In this document: one piece after another, positions 22,922 to 39,128 of the stretch | Numbering within the stretch: position 1 is the first letter of the stretch | Layout: every line of letters starts with the position of its first letter | DNA from: Tritrichomonas musculus | Taxonomy: Eukaryota > Parabasalia > Tritrichomonadida > Tritrichomonadidae | Direction of reading: 5' to 3' | Length of the DNA: 64,000 nucleotides | NCBI GenBank assembly: GCA_039105265.1 | Contig: JAPFFF010000029.1 | Location: 1,302,001-1,366,000, forward strand | Made by a program: the position numbers and the translations under genes | Notes under the pieces: generated by a model | What the model saw: only the letters and a program-made list of their open reading frames with translations | What the model was told of the DNA's origin: nothing | Database searches by the model: none

Positions 22922-24079
22922 ATGGAAATACAAAAATATCTCGAAGAAATGAAACTAATGCAAAATAACCTTTTATCTTTTCTTGAAAACGATGGTGATG
23001 TTTCTGACGCATATCAAAATTTTATTACCATTTGTGATGAAAGCGATGTTCATCATCATAAGCACAAAATCAAATCGATTCTTTACTTAATATCTAAAAT
23101 ATCAAACAATCACCATCGCACTCACAACTTTTTCAACAAAATTGGACAAATTATACAGCATTTGCATCACAGAATCAAGCATTATTTCACCGATCAAGAA
23201 ATTTTTAATGTTTTTAAGAGTAACAAAAGAGTTCTTCTTCTACTTTTTGAAGAAAAAATAATAACGGTCGATGAGAATATTAAATATGTAATGGTTAACG
23301 GTATCTACAAGACAGCTAATTATGATTATTATTTTTTCCCAGAGCTTCAACCATTTCTTGATGAGAACTTCATCAAAGAAGTCACAGAAACTCTTCCAGA
23401 CGATTTTGAAGAAAAAAGAAAAATTGGCGAAAACGACGATTACATTTGTGAGATAATCAGGAATGATTTTATACATGAATTTGTGGATCAAGTTAAAAAA
23501 AGCAAAATTCATCTTAATTCCTTTGTTAAACCGTCAATTTACGAGACAAACAATTTTTTAATCAAAAATCAAACAACATTAATTGAATATGCTGCATTTT
23601 TCGGTTCTATTCAAATTTTCAAATATTTATATCAACACCTCACTCATCCCCGGACAACCAAAAAAATTCCCTTAAAATCACCGTTATGGCTTTTCACCAT
23701 TCATGGTCAAAATGCCGATATGATCTACTTTTTGAGAGAAAATCATTTCAAATTGAAACCGAAAAATTTTTATGCTTTTCTGAAAGAATCTATCAAATGT
23801 CATCACAATGAAATAGCTAATTATGTGATGGATAATTTCATTGATAAAAATGACGATCATATTGACACTTTTTCGTTTGGCCTTCAATATTACAATTTTT
23901 ATTTCATTCGCAATGACTTCTTAAACGGTTCCGTGTTTTACAATTTATGCGCATATGATTATTACCCAATTGTTCATGCTCTGTTAGAAACGAATGATCT
24001 CGTTACAAAACGTAGACAATCTGTAAGTAGAGGACTTTTCGTTTACAAAAAAAAAATTTTTTATGAAATTTCAAAATAA
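22922..24079 (+). CDS. Trichomonad ankyrin (DUF3447-type) protein, head of a split ankyrin locus
   Basis: The ATG-started frame gives 385 aa. The N-terminal ~200 residues match the conserved head of the large trichomonad ankyrin family: a short helical start, ILYLISKISNNHHR, IFNVFKSNKRVLLLL, FPELQPFL, DDFEEKRKIGENDDYI. Then come degenerate ankyrin units: TLIEYAAFFGSIQIFKYLY, LWLFTIHGQNADMIYFL, FYNLCAYDYYPIVHALL. The last ~20 residues (after RRQS) look like readthrough into non-coding DNA. A GTAAGT lies exactly there (24023), so the real protein may be spliced onto downstream ankyrin units or end differently. Cytosolic; probably a protein-protein interaction protein. Nine isolated ankyrin units follow downstream. 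Confidence 0.8.
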   Translation: MEIQKYLEEMKLMQNNLLSFLENDGDVSDAYQNFITICDESDVHHHKHKIKSILYLISKISNNHHRTHNFFNKIGQIIQHLHHRIKHYFTDQEIFNVFKSNKRVLLLLFEEKIITVDENIKYVMVNGIYKTANYDYYFFPELQPFLDENFIKEVTETLPDDFEEKRKIGENDDYICEIIRNDFIHEFVDQVKKSKIHLNSFVKPSIYETNNFLIKNQTTLIEYAAFFGSIQIFKYLYQHLTHPRTTKKIPLKSPLWLFTIHGQNADMIYFLRENHFKLKPKNFYAFLKESIKCHHNEIANYVMDNFIDKNDDHIDTFSFGLQYYNFYFIRNDFLNGSVFYNLCAYDYYPIVHALLETNDLVTKRRQSVSRGLFVYKKKIFYEISK

Positions 24080-24096
24080 AAATTTTTTTTTATAAA

Positions 24097-24195
24097 GAAG
24101 CATTGAATATTGCTGTGGAAAAAGAAAATGTAGAAATTGTTAAACTATTATTAGCATCAGGAAATATAGATGTCAATTTCATAAATATTTCTAAA
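24097..24195 (+). other. Isolated ankyrin-repeat unit 1
   Basis: Reads EALNIAVEKENVEIVKLLLA then SGNIDVN, one nearly ideal ankyrin repeat, closed by TAA at 24196. It is in a different frame from the head gene. It could be an exon joined to C at 24014 just before GTAGAC, or a relic. Confidence 0.7.
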
Positions 24196-24417
24196 TAACC
24201 GATTTTAATATAGTTTCAAAAAATTGAATATTTTTATTCAATTTTCAATCATATTTTTTTTGAATGCAATTTCAAATCAAATAATTTTTTTTTAATCATG
24301 TTTCTAAATTGATTATTTTTTGTATGAAATTTGAAAATTTTGTATTTTACTAATGAAATTCCTAAAAAAAATTTTTTTGTTAATGCAATTTCAAAATCAA
24401 TTTTTTTTTCTCATCAA

Positions 24418-24519
24418 AGAGCATCTTTATATATTGCGGTTAAAAAGGAGAATATTGAACTTGTAAAGATTTTATTAGGGCAGCCTGGAATTAATGTTAA
24501 TCAAAGAAATATTATGAGC
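24418..24519 (+). other. Isolated ankyrin-repeat unit 2
   Basis: Reads RASLYIAVKKENIELVKILL then GQPGINVN, followed by low-complexity sequence. Same frame as unit 1 but separated from it by stops. Confidence 0.7.
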
Positions 24520-24631
24520 CAATTTTTTAAATACAATTATAAAATCAGTTTTTTCAATGACATTTACAAAAAAAAAAAATTTATAATGTTTCAACTTAAC
24601 TTTTTGAATGAAATTTTTTTATTCATTTTTT

Positions 24632-24733
24632 AATAAAACAGCATTATATTTAGCTGTTGAAAAAGAGAATTATTCAATTGTTAAAATTTTGTCTAAAAGA
24701 CCAGAAATCGATCCAAATATTGTCTGTATTTTC
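24632..24733 (+). other. Isolated ankyrin-repeat unit 3
   Basis: Reads NKTALYLAVEKENYSIVKIL then SKRPEIDPN. It is preceded by AATAAAACAG and followed by GTATTTTC, which vaguely resemble splice borders. Confidence 0.7.
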
Positions 24734-24860
24734 AATCATTTTCAATTTCAAATAAAATTTAAAAAACAAAAAAAATTTTTATTACGTTTAAAATTGAATT
24801 GATTTTTATCTCGTTTTTTGTTATTTGTACTTTAATGATGTTTGATTTTATTTTACTTAT

Positions 24861-24959
24861 ACAACCCCATTTCAAATTGCAGTTGAAAAAGAAAATATTG
24901 ATATCATTAATACTTTGTTAACGATTCCAAATATTGACATTAATCATATCAGCATTTTG
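24861..24959 (+). other. Isolated ankyrin-repeat unit 4
   Basis: Reads TTPFQIAVEKENIDIINTLL then TIPNIDIN. No splice-like border is visible at either end. Confidence 0.65.
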
Positions 24960-25181
24960 GCACTTTTTTTAAATGTCGTTTTACAATTAATTATTATTTT
25001 AATAGCATTTCAAATCATAATAATTTTGAATAACATTTTAAAAATCATGTTATCTTAATAAAGTTTTTAAATTAAATGTTTTCATACAATTTTAAACAAA
25101 GTGTTTTTAATCACATTTCAATTTCATTTCTCATTCAATTTCAATAAAAAAAAATTTAATGAAATTTCAATTTGGAAAATT

Positions 25182-25286
25182 AATAAAACAGCATTAGATG
25201 TAGCAATTGAAAAATCAAATATTGATATTATTAAAATTTTATTAAATAGACCTGAAATTAGAGTTAATACAGTGTATGTTTCAAAT
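25182..25286 (+). other. Isolated ankyrin-repeat unit 5
   Basis: Reads NKTALDVAIEKSNIDIIKIL then LNRPEIRVN. It is preceded by AATAAAACAG and followed by GTGTATGTTTC, which includes GTATGT, the trichomonad 5' splice motif. Confidence 0.7.
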
Positions 25287-25567
25287 TAAAAATAATTTGA
25301 TAAAGTTCCAAAATATCAATTTTAATTGCATTTCAAGCACGCTTTATTTTTATTATGTTCAAAATTGCAATTGTTTGAATGATGTTTTTGAATTAAAAAT
25401 ATTTTAATGTAATTCATAAATTAAATATTGTTAATGACATTCTAAAAATCTAAAAAGTTTTAATTGCATTTCATAATTAATAAAAATTTAATAAAATTTC
25501 AAATTTAATGAAATTTGAATTCAATTCAATAACATTTGAATTCATGAAATTTTACTTTTTCTTGTTT

Positions 25568-25666
25568 AATAAATCACCATTGATTATGGCTGTTGAAAAA
25601 GAAGATATTCAGATTGTTAAACTTTTGTTGGATAAAAAAGTTGATTTGAACTTCAAAAGTAAAATT
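25568..25666 (+). other. Isolated ankyrin-repeat unit 6
   Basis: Reads NKSPLIMAVEKEDIQIVKLL then LDKKVDLN, then GTAAAATTTC. The surrounding frame has an ATG, but its other codons are low-complexity spacer. Confidence 0.7.
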
Positions 25667-26063
25667 TCAAATAAAATTAGTAATTTCATTTTAAATTAAA
25701 TCTTTTCAATACAATTTCAAAATAAATGATCTTAATCTCATTCCAATCTTGTATAATTCTAATCAAATTCATAATCAAAATGTTACATAAGATTTAATAT
25801 GAAATATTTCAATGATGTTTTAAATTTGTCATTTTTTTGATAACATTTCAATTCAATAATTTCAATGCAATTTCTAGTCAATTTTTTTTAATGCAATTTT
25901 GAATCGATTTCTTTTTTTATGAAATTTTTATTTTAATTGTTCAATTCTGTTTTAATTTTTGTATTTTTTAATATAATTTCAATTTCATTTTTTTTATGAA
26001 ATTAAAATTAATTTTTAATGAAATTTTATTGTTTTTTTAAATGAAATTTTGTTTTCATATTTT

Positions 26064-26177
26064 CATAAGACAGCTTTATATATTGCAACAGAAAAAGGGA
26101 ATATTGAAATAGTTAAGCTTTTATTAAAAATGAAAGATATCGATCCTAACATAATAAACATTTTATTGAAATTGTTT
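26064..26177 (+). other. Isolated ankyrin-repeat unit 7
   Basis: Reads HKTALYIATEKGNIEIVKLL then LKMKDIDPN, ending at TAA (26178). Spacers on both sides are about 0.4 and 0.6 kb. Confidence 0.7.
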
Positions 26178-26767
26178 TAATAAAATTTCAATTCAAAAAG
26201 TTTTAATGACATTCAAAAAAAGCATTTTTTTATTCAATTTCAAATTAATTTATCAAACAAAATTCTAGCTTTATTATTTTAATATAATTTCAAATTAATA
26301 GTTTAAATAAAATTATAAAATAAAAACTTTTTTATGTGATTCCAATTCAAATGTTTCAATACAATTTTAATTTATAATTATTAATTCAATTCAAAATTGA
26401 AATGATTGATGATATTCAAAATCAAATAATTTAATAAAATTATAAATCTTATTTTTGAATTGGATTCCTACATAACCATTTTAATTGGATTCCAAATCAA
26501 TCTTTTTTTGAATGAAATTTCAACTCATATTTTTCAATAACATTTTCGATGTATTTTTTTCTCATAACATTTCACATAATGTATTTCAACAAAATTCCTT
26601 TGATAGTTATTTTAATGAAATTTTACTTCTTTCATTTAATCGGATTTCAATCAACTTTTCTAATTGTATTTTAAATGCACAATTTTTAAATGAAGTTTTA
26701 AATATAAATTTTTGTTCTAATGAAATTTCAATGTTTATTTTCTAATGAAATTTTAAAATTATTATTT

Positions 26768-26893
26768 CATAGTGCTGCTTTGCATTTAGCGGTTGAAAAA
26801 GAAAATGTTGAAATTGTTAAACTTTTGTTAGCATGCGAGAATATCAAAGTGAATCTAAAAAACATTTCAAAAATCATAATTTTCAATACAATT
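26768..26893 (+). other. Isolated ankyrin-repeat unit 8
   Basis: Reads HSAALHLAVEKENVEIVKLL then LACENIKVN, closed by TAA. The core is very close to unit 1, with the same VEKENVEIVKLLLA. Confidence 0.7.
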
Positions 26894-27251
26894 TAAATTC
26901 TAAGTTTTCAATAGAATTTCATGTTTAATATTTGAATACAATTCTTAATCTGGATGTTTTAATAAAATTTCAAAATTTTGTTTAAATATAATTTAAAGTT
27001 AAATGATTCAATATCATTTAACATCAAAAATTTAATGGTATTCAAAATTCAAGCAATTTTGTGATATTTTTAAAAATATATTATTTTAATGCAATTTCAA
27101 AATAAATCGAATTTATAAATAACATTCCAAACTAAATTTTATTTTTTAATAAAATTAAAAATTAATTCTTTTTGATGTCATTTCAAAAGTTGAACTTTTT
27201 GAATGAAATTTCACATCAAAATTTTCAATACAATTTTGACATATTTTTTTA

Positions 27252-27359
27252 AATAAAACACCGTTGCATTTAGCAGTAATGAATCAGAATTTAGATATTA
27301 TTAAATTGTTATTAGATTTCGATGGTATTGATGTTAATGCTGTTGATGAAATTCAAATA
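27252..27359 (+). other. Isolated ankyrin-repeat unit 9 (last)
   Basis: Reads NKTPLHLAVMNQNLDIIKLL then LDFDGIDVN, ending at TAA (27360). It differs most from the others and looks like a terminal unit. No further unit follows. Confidence 0.7.
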
Positions 27360-28049
27360 TAAATTTTTGTTTACAGAATTAAGTTTCGTATTTTATGGTT
27401 TGTCTTTTTAATTTTTGAAAAACGCCTCTAAAGTTAACTAATAATAGTCTAATTATAAAGTTGTTTCATCCTGTAGATGATTCACCTATGTTAGTCGATT
27501 AATTTTTGAATTTTATTTGCAAAATAATAAATAATAAAGCAGAAGTTTATAGATTTTATGATTCTTTTATTTTAAATTTGAAAATATAATTAGAGCATCA
27601 TTAAAGATATAATTGATTTTTGGGGATATGTATTTTTCCAGAAGTATTTTAAATGAATTAATTTTTTTGTGTTTTATAGAAGAAATATGAATGTTAAATT
27701 ATTTAAAATGCTGCTTTGACTTTTTTCATTTTCAAAATATACATATTTATTTAAAATATTAGTTATGCATATGGATATAACATGAAATTTTAATAATAAT
27801 GTGGATTTAAAATATTATATGAAAAAAATATTATATATTTACATTTACGATTTGAGAAATAAATGATTTTTTTTTTCTGAAATTAAAAATTTCTGAAAAA
27901 TAATCTATTCAATTTTTAAATTAAATAGAATTATCATCACAATTTTAATAAGAATATTTTGTTTATATTGTATCAAATTTTAATGTTTTATTTTTATCAT
28001 AAAACGATATAAAAAATATGAAGTAATCTGCAATAAGTTATTTTTTATA
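27360..28049. other. AT-rich intergenic stretch
   Basis: About 690 bp after the ankyrin array, with no repeat of the spacer type and no gene seen. It includes the promoter of the next small gene, but no canonical initiator was recognised. Confidence 0.5.
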
Positions 28050-28343
28050 ATGTCAGGTTATCCACCAGGTTATGTACCAGGATATGGCGCACCACCTCCA
28101 CCAGGATATCCACCAGCATACGGCGCACCAGGATATGTTCCACCTCCACCACCAGTTTATGTTGCTCCTCCACCACCAGTTTATGTCGCTCCCCCTCCTC
28201 CAGTTTATGTAGCTCCACCGCCACCACCAATGTATGCAGGTGGTTATCGTCAGCCATATCCAGTCGGATGCTATAAGGTAAAGAAATTTAAGCCATATAA
28301 GCATTACGGATATAAGCATGGATCATCATCTTCATCTTCTTAA
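28050..28343 (+). CDS. Small Pro/Gly/Tyr-rich repeat protein, 97 aa
   Basis: The ATG at 28050 is followed by GYPPGY-type repeats, then tandem PPPPVYVAP units (three near-identical copies), a GGYRQPYP segment, and a basic Tyr/Lys/His C-terminus (KVKKFKPYKHYGYKHG) ending in six serines. The G/C-rich codons stand out sharply from the flanking AT-rich DNA, which supports real coding. It belongs to the broad XYPPX/GYP low-complexity class found at annexin or WBP N-termini and in extracellular coat proteins; no specific function follows. Stop TAAA. No signal peptide. Confidence 0.85.
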   Translation: MSGYPPGYVPGYGAPPPPGYPPAYGAPGYVPPPPPVYVAPPPPVYVAPPPPVYVAPPPPPMYAGGYRQPYPVGCYKVKKFKPYKHYGYKHGSSSSSS

Positions 28344-29374: not shown

Positions 29375-30363
29375 GCAAAGCAAACATGAAGATTTTTAGC
29401 TAATTCTGATAACTTGATGGTTGATGGAACATTCAGAACCACTCCGCCTGAATTTGACCAAGATATCAACATCATGGGTGCTAATTTATTAAAAAAACTT
29501 ATATGACATTTTGTCATATTCTCATAAAAAAAGAAGAAGATTATTTTATAGCTTTTCAAATGCTTTTCACTCAAACAATCGATACGCTTCGCTTTTTGAG
29601 AGTTAAAATGTTCATCACTGATTTCGAAAAATCATTAATGAATGCAATTTCCAAAATCATTAATTCTTTCTTTTTAAATGAAGAATTAGGAATACCTATA
29701 AAGTAAGAAAGAATGTCTAATTCGAACTTTTTCAAAATACTATAATAAAGAAAAAAATGGAAAAGAAAAGAAAGAAATACTTTATTTTTTACTCTTTGCT
29801 CCATATATAAAATGGGAAGTATTAACTGAGTGAATTACTAAATTGTTAAATCTAAAAACTCAAATAAATCAATTTCTCCTTTACTATAAAAAGAGATGTT
29901 TGAGTCACAAAGAGACTTGGTATGAAGGCGAATCATTACATGAAAGAATACTTACTTATTGTGCATTAGAATCTTGCCGCCGTAGGTTAAATGCTGTATT
30001 AAAAGCATCTCCATCACTTGAAGACTTCGCAAAAAGCTTGTACGCTTTTGATATGAAAAATTATCATGAATTAAAAGTGAATCTTAATAACAATCAACTA
30101 CATAAATACCAGCTATTTCTTAAAAAAAAAGACAAAATTCTTCACAAGATGGACTGTATTCTAGGAAATTTGAAAGATGGTAATAATAACGAAAAAGAGT
30201 CTGTTAATATAACTGTTTAAAATAATGATTCAGAAAGCTTGTGTAATTATGACGAAAACAAAAACGATTTGTTTCAGGATGTTTTCTTTAATGAAACGCT
30301 AGGTGACAGTTCTGAAATAATAGAACATCAAATTGATGATATTTTGAAAAAAATTGATAAATA
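29375..30363 (+). pseudogene. Broken MULE-type transposase
   Basis: Pieces in different frames read, in order, like a Mutator-like (MULE) transposase: NSDNLMVDGTFRTTPPEF at 29400-29455 (the first catalytic-Asp region, DGTF..P..F), then after a frameshift HILIKKEEDYFIAFQMLF and FITDFEKSLMNAI (29506-29650, the second Asp), then further broken sequence, and a longer piece at 29843-30220 (WYEGESLHERILTYCALES...). An in-frame stop at 30218 is followed by about 48 more open codons to 30363. No full-length frame exists, so the element is dead. Confidence 0.75.
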
Positions 30364-31079
30364 ATAAAATTATGAACTATTAATAGTAAACGAGTTAAAA
30401 AATTTAAAATTCATTACATTCTAATGGCATAATTTATTTTTATAAAAATGGTCGAATTTAATAAACTAATCATTCTTAACTTTAAATGTGGAAGAGATAA
30501 ATAAAATGAACAAATTAACGAGATAAATTAATATAAATCAAATAGTATTAATGATGAAACTGCCATACATAAACTTTATGCTCGTTACTATTGCAGAGTA
30601 TGTGATAAAGCTTACGGTAAGAGATGCATCAATATATGGAGAATGAAGATGAGAATATTAAAGCGAATGTATGGTAAATTAATCCAATTTGACTCATAAA
30701 AAGATATACCTTGGATTTTGGAGATACCTAAAAAATGACTCATCTACTTTGATATGTCTCGCATTCCATATAAGATTAAACCAATAATGAAATTATATCA
30801 TGTTTTTTGAGTATAGATCATAAAATTAATTTGAAAAGATATTTATTTCTTTTAGTTAATTAAATATAGGGGGACCATTTTAAAAAAAATTGAATAGGAG
30901 GGATAATTTTTTAGCCCTCCACTATCCCTATCCTCATCATTCAGAAAGACCTTCATATCTGGGATTGTACATCAGCCTCTTACAAAGAGAAACAATTTGC
31001 ATTTTTAAAATAACATTAATTAATTAAAATGTAAATTCTCATTTTGGGAGATTTCTAAAAAAGAGCATCATTTTCTAAA
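30364..31079. other. Transposon-flanking region, possible further relic
   Basis: Around 30550-30700 (+) there is an open stretch with balanced composition, including YYCRVCDKAYGKRC, which has a CxxC like a zinc finger. It may be another broken transposon or host gene piece. The rest is AT-rich with nothing recognisable. Confidence 0.35.
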
Positions 31080-36517: not shown

Positions 36518-37126
36518 CCTTTTATATAAATTGGCCTTAAAAAAGAAAATTCACCTTAAATAATATTTTTTTAATTTCTTCATTAAATAAAAATTTACGG
36601 TCATATCAATCATATAATACATATAAAAAAATATTTTATTATTTTAAATTAGTTTTTTTATCTAATATTAATATAAGAATTAAAAGATAGTTTTAGTTTA
36701 ATGTATTCAATTTGATTTCAAATTTTTTGGAGTTTAAAAAAGTTTAAATACTTTACGTATAATTGCATACTTTACAAAAAACATATTTATATAAATAAAT
36801 ATCTATCATAATATGATAAATATAGAAATTTCAAGTAAATAACCATATTTCAACAAACAATAATTCTTTAAATTTGCAAAATAATTCTATAGAGTTTTTT
36901 TAAAGTTAAAAAGATCATTAAAACTTCAATATTATAATATCATCATTATTATTTTATATTTAATATGACATTTATAACTGAACTTTTTGGTTTTTACCTA
37001 TAAACATTCATTATTTTTTTTTTTTTTTTTATCTATTATTAAATGATCTCGATTTCTCTAAAAGGTTTTTTTCCAAATTGAAACAAACAAACAAAAAAAT
37101 CCAAAATCATCCAAATTAATTTATTT
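36518..37126. other. AT-rich intergenic stretch
   Basis: About 600 bp, with a T-run near 37017. No gene or repeat recognised. Confidence 0.45.
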
Positions 37127-39128
37127 TTAATTAATTCCATTTCTGATGAGAAGAGCAGATGGATCCGGATCTCTTCCCATGAAATCTCTGTACAATTCAG
37201 AGGCAGGTTTAGAATTACCCCATTTCAATTCCTTATCACGAAACTCCATTCCAACTTTTTCATTTAAAATTCCTTCCTTCTTGAATCTCGTGAAAACGTC
37301 GGCTTCCAGGACCTCTGCCCACATTTGGCTATAATACGCAGCTGCGTAACCCGGCGAAGAGCTGAACAAGTGTCCGAATCAATGAAGTTGACTATAAAAT
37401 CCTTAAGGACAAGTTCATTGATTTGATCGACATTCATACCGTCGAACTTTTTGAAATGATGGTGAAATTCAAGGTCAAATTTTCCAAAGGATAATTGGCC
37501 CATCATTTGAATTGCCGAATTGTAATTTCTCGCAGCAATCATCTTTTCAAAGACTTCGTCTGGTATTTTTTCACCTGTCTCATAATGCTCGGCGAAAAGG
37601 CCAAGTGCGTTACGCTCCCAGGCCCAATTTTCAAGCAGTCGTGAAGGGAGCTCAACGAAGCCACGAGGAACACGAGTACCGGCAAAAGTACGCGTTGTTG
37701 TCTTTGTTAAAATTCCATGACAAAGATGACCAAACTCATGAAAAATCGTCTCAACTTCCGAATGACTTAATAAAGCAGGCTTATCACCGGATGGCTTTTG
37801 AATGTTACCGACGAGAGTTGCAAGATTCTTCGGGTTCGAAGGATACAAAGTGTAGAATGAACGATGCCAGGCGCCGCTTCCAATCTGCGAAGAAACCGCC
37901 AAGTTGATCGTTTGTTTTTTTTATCAAAAACTTCGTAATATTTGACATCTTGATGACAGACTTCAACTTTCCCTTCAATTGAAGGCTCACTTGGGATGAA
38001 CGATAGAATGTCTCAGCTTGTCGAACGTTTATTCCATAGATCGAAGAAGCGATCATAAAGATGCCCTTCATCACTTTATCCACTGGAAAATAAGGACGAA
38101 GTGCTTCATCGTCGAAATCGTATTTTTCTCTACGCAGAAGCTCACTGTAATACGACCTTTCCCAAGGGAAAACCTCAGTGTTTTCGTCATTTACAATTTT
38201 GGCCTTGAATTGACGTATACGATCATTTTCTAACAAAAATTGCGAATGACATTTGTCGTGCTAATTATCAACAAAATGAAGCGCGATGCCTCCTTTCAAC
38301 GCCATTCGTTGTGCGAGGATCAAGTCAACAAAAGAACTAAAACCAAGAATTCTTGCTTTTTTGTCACGTAACCGAAATATTTCTAACAAAATTGGACCGT
38401 TTTCAAATTCACCTGTATGGCCAATTGTGCCAAAAACTTCCCACATTTTCTTCCGAAACGCGTCACTTTTCGCATACTTAATAACAGGGAAATATGAAGG
38501 CACATGGATGGTGAATAAATATTCACCTTTGTGGCCTTTCTTCTCAGCTGCTTCTGAGGCTTGATTAAGTGACGATTCAGGCAAACCGTCAAGCTCTTTC
38601 TCGTCTTTTATGTAGAGTTCAAAGGCGTTTGTTGAATCAAGGCAATTTGAATTGAATTTGTCGTTTAACTTGGTGATTTCTATTTCAATTCGTCTTTTTG
38701 CTCTTCTTTCAAATCAGCACCATTCAATTTGAATGTCAAAACCGTTTCTTCAATAAAACGTTTTTGCTCGGCGGTTAAGGTCGATAGATCGATTTTTTCA
38801 GTGGCATTCTTGATAGCAGACCATAATTTGGAGTTGAGGAATATTTTGGTGTAAAATTCCGTGATTTTATGGTTAAATTCTTTATAGACTGATCGTAATT
38901 GCTCATTGTCATGAACGGAAATAAGATGATCTAGATAACTGTCACAGTTATCAAACGCAGTAAAAACACTGTCATAATTGATTTGATCTTCCGATAAATT
39001 TGATATGGAATCAATTCGCTCTTGTGATAATTTCATGGCATGAGTGATATCTATTTGAGCTTGCTCAGGAGTTAATTCGGCCCATGGAATTGGGAATTGC
39101 TGCTGAATGAATGGTGGGGTTCAGACAT
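37127..39128 (-). pseudogene. Frameshifted M3-family metallopeptidase (oligopeptidase A/thimet type)
   Basis: Read on the minus strand, consecutive pieces in changing frames cover almost a full M3 peptidase: the N-terminus near 39110 (PWAELTPEQAQIDITHAMK...), helical pieces at 39036-38680 and 38584-38261, then 38236-37930, the active site at 37902-37380 (FHEFGHLCHG, with the third zinc-ligand region FVELPSRLLENW), and the C-terminus at 37369-37127 ([19 protein letters not shown]). At least four or five frameshifts separate them. The HEFGH motif is intact, so the decay is recent. The G/C-richer codons resemble a formerly well-expressed gene. Assembly indels are possible, but the long intact genes elsewhere in the window argue for a true pseudogene. 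Confidence 0.85.

Follow-up and report, generated by a model that had tools for sequence, protein, structure and literature searches.

A gene interrupted after nearly every codon of its linkers appears to lie on the forward strand of a stretch of Tritrichomonas musculus DNA (contig JAPFFF010000029.1, positions 1,302,001 to 1,366,000)—hereafter the window, 64,000 nucleotides (nt) in length. The gene model spans 22922–27362 and comprises a head exon, 85 one-codon exons, and nine exons of one ankyrin unit each, separated by 95 mini-introns in the chains s0–s8 (Table 1). Judged from the sequence, we assign a probability of roughly 0.82 to the reading that the gene works, that its ultrashort introns form a class not yet described and flank exons of one codon, and that these introns are removed at the RNA level. 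An earlier note on this DNA had offered a multi-exon gene with noncanonical introns as one possibility. This stands in kind, whereas its layout of one exon per repeat and a single intron per spacer does not, as each spacer is a chain of 2–24 mini-introns. By this reading, the locus is neither a relic nor a gene with one intron per repeat.

Short elements and probable codons tile the spacers

The nine ankyrin units—31–35 codons each, from 24094 to 27359—are free of stops and spread over all three frames, as the earlier note had seen. A hidden Markov model (HMM) of the unit finds all nine intact at E 7.8e-19 to 1.2e-12, with the next best of 1234 six-frame stretches at E 0.53, and no comparable stretches elsewhere in the window in any of the six frames. 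The training set held same-locus copies of six units (1, 2, 5, 6, 7, and 8); the units without such a copy score E 4.8e-16 (unit 3), 6.7e-13 (unit 4), and 1.5e-15 (unit 9). From the exon coordinates, the spacers between units measure 124–611 nt, close to the 115–590 bp given before.

What had been missed is a period of 25–27 nt within these spacers, with one hidden codon per period. Spacer autocorrelation peaks at lags 25–27 with 0.42–0.43, compared with about 0.35 for AT-rich DNA elsewhere in the window. The spacers consist of RTT...NAY elements (R, A or G; Y, T or C), 19–28 nt long and chained with gaps of almost always exactly 3 nt. The motif TTTTTTAAT-NNN-ATTTCAAA fills them in register, and the ankyrin units occupy the position of the NNN slot, between NAT and RTT. 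That the elements tile the spacers, share a border motif, and leave 3-nt exons with a coding signature can all be read directly from the DNA.

For this coding signature, a content-blind chain rule was used, which relies on NAT and RTT only, ignores the slot letters, and yields 84 slots. None of them is a stop codon. Slot GC content is 0.357—compared with at most 0.262 at other offsets and about 0.16 in the spacers overall—and the codon-usage score averages +1.12 bits per codon, while 29 other offsets stay at or below +0.44. G occupies the first codon position in 33 of the 84 slots and in at most 14 at other offsets. Shuffled spacers give 17 slots on average and 26 at most (100 shuffles), with 10.7% stops, a rate at which the chance of finding none in 84 is 7e-5. 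The hidden slots spell linkers rich in E, K, S, T, D, and N, and include CGG, TGG, TGC, CTC, and AGC amid DNA of 16% GC.

Two fits, whose border weights were learned on the spacers being fitted, complement the rule. The tiling fit scores 646, compared with −74 to −150 in 10 shuffles; it forbids stops in exons, and its 0 stops in 85 exons are hence not independent evidence. The free fit over s1–s8 allows exons of 0–7 nt and does not forbid stops: of the 85 interior exons, 82 are fitted as 3 nt, and no stops occur, where permutation of the slot columns at constant composition expects 5.8 (P = 5e-5). For the gene model, one artefact intron at the head (with an out-of-phase start) was removed and one s2 intron re-cut by hand. 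The s2 codon AAT (N) was found by the content-blind rule, merged into an intron by both fits, and set as an exon by hand. In s7, the rule misses the two introns ending in AAC and has one spurious slot (TTT); the later fits add two AAA slots after AAC. Taken as a whole, we consider it very likely that the slots are codons.

Table 1. Exons and mini-intron chains of the gene model, in window positions (ORF, open reading frame)
Feature	Position	Strand	Evidence
First exon, head of the trichomonad ankyrin family, 373 codons, ending ..VSRGLF	22922–24040	+	ORF
Chain s0: 2 mini-introns, 1 one-codon exon GAA (E) at 24065–24067	24041–24093	+	Slot rule, tiling fit
Ankyrin unit exon 1	24094–24186	+	Unit HMM, E 7e-17; borders
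Chain s1: 8 mini-introns, 7 one-codon exons (ISAHEEA)	24187–24414	+	Slot rule, both fits
Ankyrin unit exon 2	24415–24510	+	Unit HMM, borders
Chain s2: 5 mini-introns, 4 one-codon exons (TDNE)	24511–24634	+	Slot rule, fits, hand
Ankyrin unit exon 3	24635–24727	+	Unit HMM, borders
Chain s3: 5 mini-introns, 4 one-codon exons (KYLD)	24728–24860	+	Slot rule, both fits
Ankyrin unit exon 4	24861–24953	+	Unit HMM, borders
Chain s4: 9 mini-introns, 8 one-codon exons (VSNKTHSE)	24954–25184	+	Slot rule, both fits
Ankyrin unit exon 5	25185–25277	+	Unit HMM, borders
Chain s5: 11 mini-introns, 10 one-codon exons (KCYDVDCKSE)	25278–25570	+	Slot rule, tiling fit
Ankyrin unit exon 6	25571–25663	+	Unit HMM, borders
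Chain s6: 16 mini-introns, 15 one-codon exons (FTLQKDNAAESIEEE)	25664–26066	+	Slot rule, both fits
Ankyrin unit exon 7	26067–26159	+	Unit HMM, borders
Chain s7: 24 mini-introns (2 ending AAC), 23 one-codon exons (KDSKIKVTSDKWWENNKERCEEE)	26160–26770	+	Both fits
Ankyrin unit exon 8	26771–26863	+	Unit HMM, borders
Chain s8: 15 mini-introns, 13 one-codon exons (TRTKIIGANKVET)	26864–27254	+	Slot rule, both fits
Last exon: ankyrin unit 9, ..VDEIQI, stop TAA at 27360–27362	27255–27362	+	ORF, unit HMM

Form and borders of the proposed mini-introns

The mini-introns have a median length of 23 nt and a mode of 22 nt (n = 95), with 39 inside the 23–25 nt of the short intron class of Trichomonas vaginalis, and all are positioned between codons. 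Their consensus is RTTYYAAA at the 5′ end and TTTTNAT—twice NAC—at the 3′ end. The terminal pairs are AT-AT in 77, GT-AT in 16, and AT-AC in 2 cases; thus, 93 elements end in AT, two in AC, and none in AG. The first intron begins at an in-phase GTT at 24041, directly after the head exon. In-phase stops occur within 42 of the 95, and 28 have lengths divisible by 3. No two mini-introns are identical. Neighbors are slightly more alike, with an alignment score of 6.4 compared with 5.3 for elements from different spacers (sd 3.5), which fits tandem duplication, but weakly. By consensus, the two ends of an element are complementary, and when whole spacers are folded as RNA, a consistent excess is not evident (z −2.8 to +1.2 for the nine spacers).

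No mini-intron starts with GTA in the manner of GTAYGT, and none contains ACTAAC, in line with what had been reported for the DNA between the units; CTAA anywhere is found in 11 of the 95. Together with the RT-AY terminal pairs, this shows that they are not the known trichomonad GT-AG introns. The window has 6 CTAACACACAG-like matches, compared with 6.1 expected, which is chance level. Two sites pointed out before are present: GTAAGT at 24023, which most simply is coding Val-Ser, and GTATGT at 25274, which spans the last four bases of unit exon 5 and the first two of the following intron. U12-type introns bear RTATCCTT as 5′ site and TCCTTAAC as branch site, and AT-AC or AT-AT terminal pairs are allowed. 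The purine at +1 and the AT or AC end of the mini-introns recall AT-AC introns, while the U12 motifs themselves are absent: none of the 95 has the 5′ site within two mismatches or the branch site within one.

Canonical GT-AG introns, one per spacer, were considered and rejected, as no AG is seen by eye where the acceptor of units 4, 6, and 9 would lie, and GT is missing from the start of 79 of the 95 elements. Translation of each unit from its own ATG was likewise rejected: an ATG lies 23–40 nt upstream of units 1–8, but only units 3 and 6 share its frame, and unit 9 has none within 45 nt upstream.

A post hoc observation concerns the minority of introns with G at +1. Such a G follows a T-ending exon in 8 of 15 cases, compared with 8 of 80 otherwise (Fisher P 3.7e-4), and seven of these eight T-ending exons end in AT. 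Perhaps, the G start keeps an AT-ending exon from being read as the end of the upstream intron. Just past the last stop, at 27370–27380, TTTAC-AGA-ATT resembles a further element (NAC-NNN-RTT), which makes the 3′ limit of the gene model uncertain.

Outside the locus, single matches to the border motif are about as frequent on the plus strand (60.8 kb) as on the minus strand (64 kb)—73 versus 67 at threshold 10, 191 versus 189 at threshold 8, and 24 versus 20 at threshold 12. Hence, there is no excess of mini-introns outside the gene within the window. Runs of more than four slots on the plus strand occur only in this locus.

The predicted product and its relatives

Removal of the 95 mini-introns from the sequence gives a protein of 742 amino acids (aa) with the head and nine ankyrin repeats. 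It matches Ank_2 at E 1.9e-54, close to the intact relative P0243 with 3.7e-58, while the head ORF alone reaches 7.3e-4, below the Pfam cut-off. The earlier description of a conserved trichomonad ankyrin head holds; Pfam DUF3447 (PF11929) itself has no match in head or product at E up to 0.001. Among relatives, P0252 matches PF11929 at 1.1e-7 and P0243 and P0004 do not; the DUF3447 name goes back to how relatives are annotated at their source.

The uninterrupted ankyrin proteins carrying this name (e.g., P0243, T. musculus M9Y10_037314) resemble the product in head, repeats, and the place and composition of the linkers, with the difference that the linkers run without a break in their predicted proteins. 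P0242, P0243, P0251, and P0252 (824–867 aa) carry the head as well as many repeats, and their hydrophilic linker sits between "DxN" and "KTAL". Compared with 81 intact linkers of 4–60 residues, from 40 long relatives picked by hand from the listed matches, the amino acid composition of the slots correlates with r = 0.81—and with r = 0.03 when compared with the intron interiors. Glu stands directly before the repeat in 41 of these 81 linkers and in six of nine cases in the interrupted gene. The order of the slots is informative as well. Aligned to 16 uninterrupted relatives, chosen by hand, some without head and those above 700 aa trimmed to the part after residue 360, the real order scores 4897, above every one of 60 shuffles (mean 4635, sd 73, max 4830); residues from intron interiors used in place of the slots reach 4447 (max 4620), and a version without slots 3777.

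At E up to 0.001 and with candidates restricted to 0.55–1.75 times the query length, 1079 relatives of the head ORF were found, T. musculus proteins among them, and 120 of these were listed. The closest named one among the matches listed is P0004 from Tritrichomonas musculus, with 46% identity. In the viral and genome contig collections, no relative of the head was found. Among the 120, 118 stop before a further ankyrin unit, and P0071 and P0079 continue; a third pattern match, P0015, is the head's own last repeat (by eye). The listed heads typically end in "..DIDIN xx[IE]I[FYSL]", after which the read-through is of low complexity (by eye), and the 120 listed unit matches include single-unit ORFs of 42–77 aa with similar read-through flanks.

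These flanks allow the borders to be read at the protein level, as an in-phase RTT reads as Ile or Val and NAT or NAC as Asn, Tyr, His, or Asp. Position N+4 is Ile or Val in 80 of 95 head ORFs (99 of 117 heads were parsed, four of which end before N+4) and in 19 of 20 single-unit ORFs, compared with 19 of 81 intact linkers. Directly before the repeat, the 20 single-unit ORFs have Tyr in 11, His in six, and Asn in three cases—TAY, CAY, and AAY—compared with Glu in 41 of the 81 intact linkers. The 20 ORFs, taken from the 120 listed unit matches, have exactly one pattern match and at most 80 aa; three rows from the window itself were excluded and three copies of the locus included. The border residues implied by RTT...NAT thus recur in the listed Tritrichomonas musculus and metagenome relatives, and the interrupted layout is, as far as these protein borders tell, family-wide.

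P0132 starts with the unit-7 border of P0174 and continues into an in-frame continuous linker. Therefore, interrupted and uninterrupted linkers seem to coexist in one gene. Both this pair and P0125/P0198 share a spacer flank and most of a unit near-exactly and then diverge abruptly, which points to a putative recombination between interrupted and uninterrupted family members. P0157, P0162, P0182, and P0187 have tails that resemble one another, for example "..GKKPIDYSKNDEIKRLL", which the window gene, with VDEIQI at its end, lacks.

Four protein rows from the same locus (P0001, P0174, P0208, and P0217) were compared by eye with the window. Units and visible slots are identical in all four. P0217 differs in three residues after the unit-6 exon, all of them intron positions; in P0174 and P0208, the read-through shifts upstream of the unit, fitting small changes in intron length; P0174 also differs in one residue of the next intron, and P0001 differs from the window head by one residue, inside the first intron. 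These differences are few, and homopolymer changes may be sequencing error. An assembly error appears unlikely because the protein database counts several contigs for the head (P0001, 4) and for unit copies (unit 1, P0208, 2; unit 6, P0217, 7; unit 7, P0174, 5).

Other ORFs of the window encode BspA-type LRR, Myb, Syja_N, Sec23/24, and kinase domains. A small Gly/Pro/Tyr-rich ORF (MSGYPPGYVPGYGAPPPPGYPP..) at 28050–28343 lies below the 100-aa limit of the ORF list, and three adjoining open stretches of 128, 47, and 55 aa at 29834–30699 resemble a broken gene. At 37001–39000, GC content rises to 0.37–0.38, compared with about 0.22 on both flanks, with no Rfam match there.

Competing explanations, known systems, and consequences

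Several observations weigh against a working gene with mini-introns. No known splice signal fits the elements, and no covariation between their ends was found. Two introns in s8 adjoin at 27065/27066 without a codon between them, and the free fit has three exceptions to the 3-nt rule, two exons of 0 nt and one of 7 nt; the last exon of s5 measures 7 nt in this fit. Six other offsets (−6, −3, −2, +2, +3, and +4) are stop-free as well: five because they overlap with the fixed NAT and RTT letters, the sixth in a T run. Hence, the absence of stops alone does not mark the slots; composition and order do. The commonest slot is GAA (16 of 84), as the founder of a minisatellite would also yield. The family claim depends on a protein reading of the borders at other loci. 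Finally, T. vaginalis has just 63 active introns, all GT-AG, with a type B of 23–25 nt (PMC12316389).

The elements might be cut from DNA instead of RNA, by a programmed deletion similar to that of internal eliminated sequences (IES). The coding evidence fits both kinds of removal alike, the 22-nt mode is near the length of two turns of the helix, and there is a rough symmetry in RTT...NAY. On the other hand, ciliate IES bear TA at both ends and none of the 95 elements starts with TA; no uninterrupted version of the window gene exists among the 120 listed head relatives, and we know of no nuclear dimorphism or DNA elimination in parabasalids. We therefore regard this as improbable.

Similarly improbable is a decayed minisatellite inside a dead or head-only gene, with the units as relics. 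It would account for the 25–27 nt periodicity and for the GAA slots, and a head-only product is conceivable given that the head ORF ends at a similar place in 118 of 120 listed relatives. Yet, the slots are richer in GC than their surroundings, free of stops, and in an order that fits the linkers of relatives; the presence of CGG, TGG, TGC, CTC, and AGC is not what is expected from drift of a GAA founder. All nine units are intact. The recent relics considered in the earlier note are thus not supported either, with coding constraint in both hidden triplets and units and with the few same-locus differences in intron positions.

A silent cassette store that supplies gene conversion to expressed ankyrin genes, also suggested before, is not needed and very unlikely. 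The mosaic sharing of units in P0125/P0198 and P0132/P0174 would suit it, but any large repeat family would be expected to show such mosaicism, and the in-order linker codons in the spacers would be left unexplained. Translational bypass, known for some mitochondrial and phage genes, is hardly credible, as ribosomes would have to skip 95 elements per message and mostly read one codon in between.

For the working gene with RNA-level removal, the following course is proposed. The gene would belong to a large trichomonad ankyrin family with head, nine ankyrin repeats, and hydrophilic linkers, of which only the linkers are broken—by an intron after nearly every codon. About 4.4 kb would be transcribed into a pre-mRNA carrying the 95 mini-introns; their removal would unite the head with the 85 one-codon exons and the nine exons of the units, and one protein of 742 aa would be translated. 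Provided that the slots are codons, it is highly probable that they are joined at the RNA level; the removal itself, its place before translation, and the use of the product are what we infer. Linker length might change as codon-plus-intron blocks of ~26 nt are gained or lost in tandem; such a block would keep the frame without being a multiple of 3 because its intron part is removed. A modified spliceosome is our first guess for the machinery, and a non-spliceosomal RNA cut-and-join reaction the second.

Ultrashort introns or exons are also found in Stentor, chlorarachniophyte nucleomorphs, and Paramecium, and as vertebrate microexons—these, however, have GT-AG borders, and to our knowledge, no chain of single-codon exons occurs in any of them. 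The type B introns of T. vaginalis are similar in length and come from the same parabasalid lineage; they are GT-AG introns whose branch site is fused to the 3′ end, motifs that the RT...AY mini-introns lack, and number no more than two per gene in T. stableri, a sister species, compared with 95 in the window gene (PMC12316389). Long introns of diplomonads and T. vaginalis are reported to have internal pairing (PMC6679479), and 2,500 annotated intron-containing genes are reported for T. musculus (PMC11978803). The nonconventional introns of euglenids and diplonemids are nuclear and without GT-AG borders as well, with a removal route called unknown for those of euglenids (PMC6221363, PMC4770533, PMC12621601). 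Euglenid introns, though, have variable borders and a stable structure joining their ends, whereas the mini-introns have fixed borders, 19–28 nt, no covariation, and no consistent folding excess. In the titles and abstract openings covered—most subscription papers and bioRxiv lie outside this coverage—no RT...AY mini-introns or chains of one-codon exons are described. Neither the border class nor the layout of one codon per exon matches any system that we can name.

It seems likely that Tritrichomonas-type protists possess an RTTYYAAA..TTTTNAY intron class—about 22 nt long, between codons, and independent of GT-AG introns—and that ankyrin genes, perhaps hundreds to thousands of them, bear loops with one codon per exon, in which ~26-nt codon-plus-intron blocks duplicate in tandem as a frame-safe way of loop lengthening and diversification. 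If the ordinary spliceosome performs the removal, the class would be an extreme variant of spliceosomal introns; if not, it would imply a new RNA-processing machine. Given confirmation of the removal, a relative of T. vaginalis, with its 63 active introns, would have about 95 in one gene. One-codon exons would challenge views on the minimal length of an exon and on how a 22-nt intron that has neither a GT-AG pair nor a known branch motif is recognized at its ends. Head-only gene models in the ankyrin family, for example in T. musculus, would be truncated, and the evolution of protein loops would have gained a new route.

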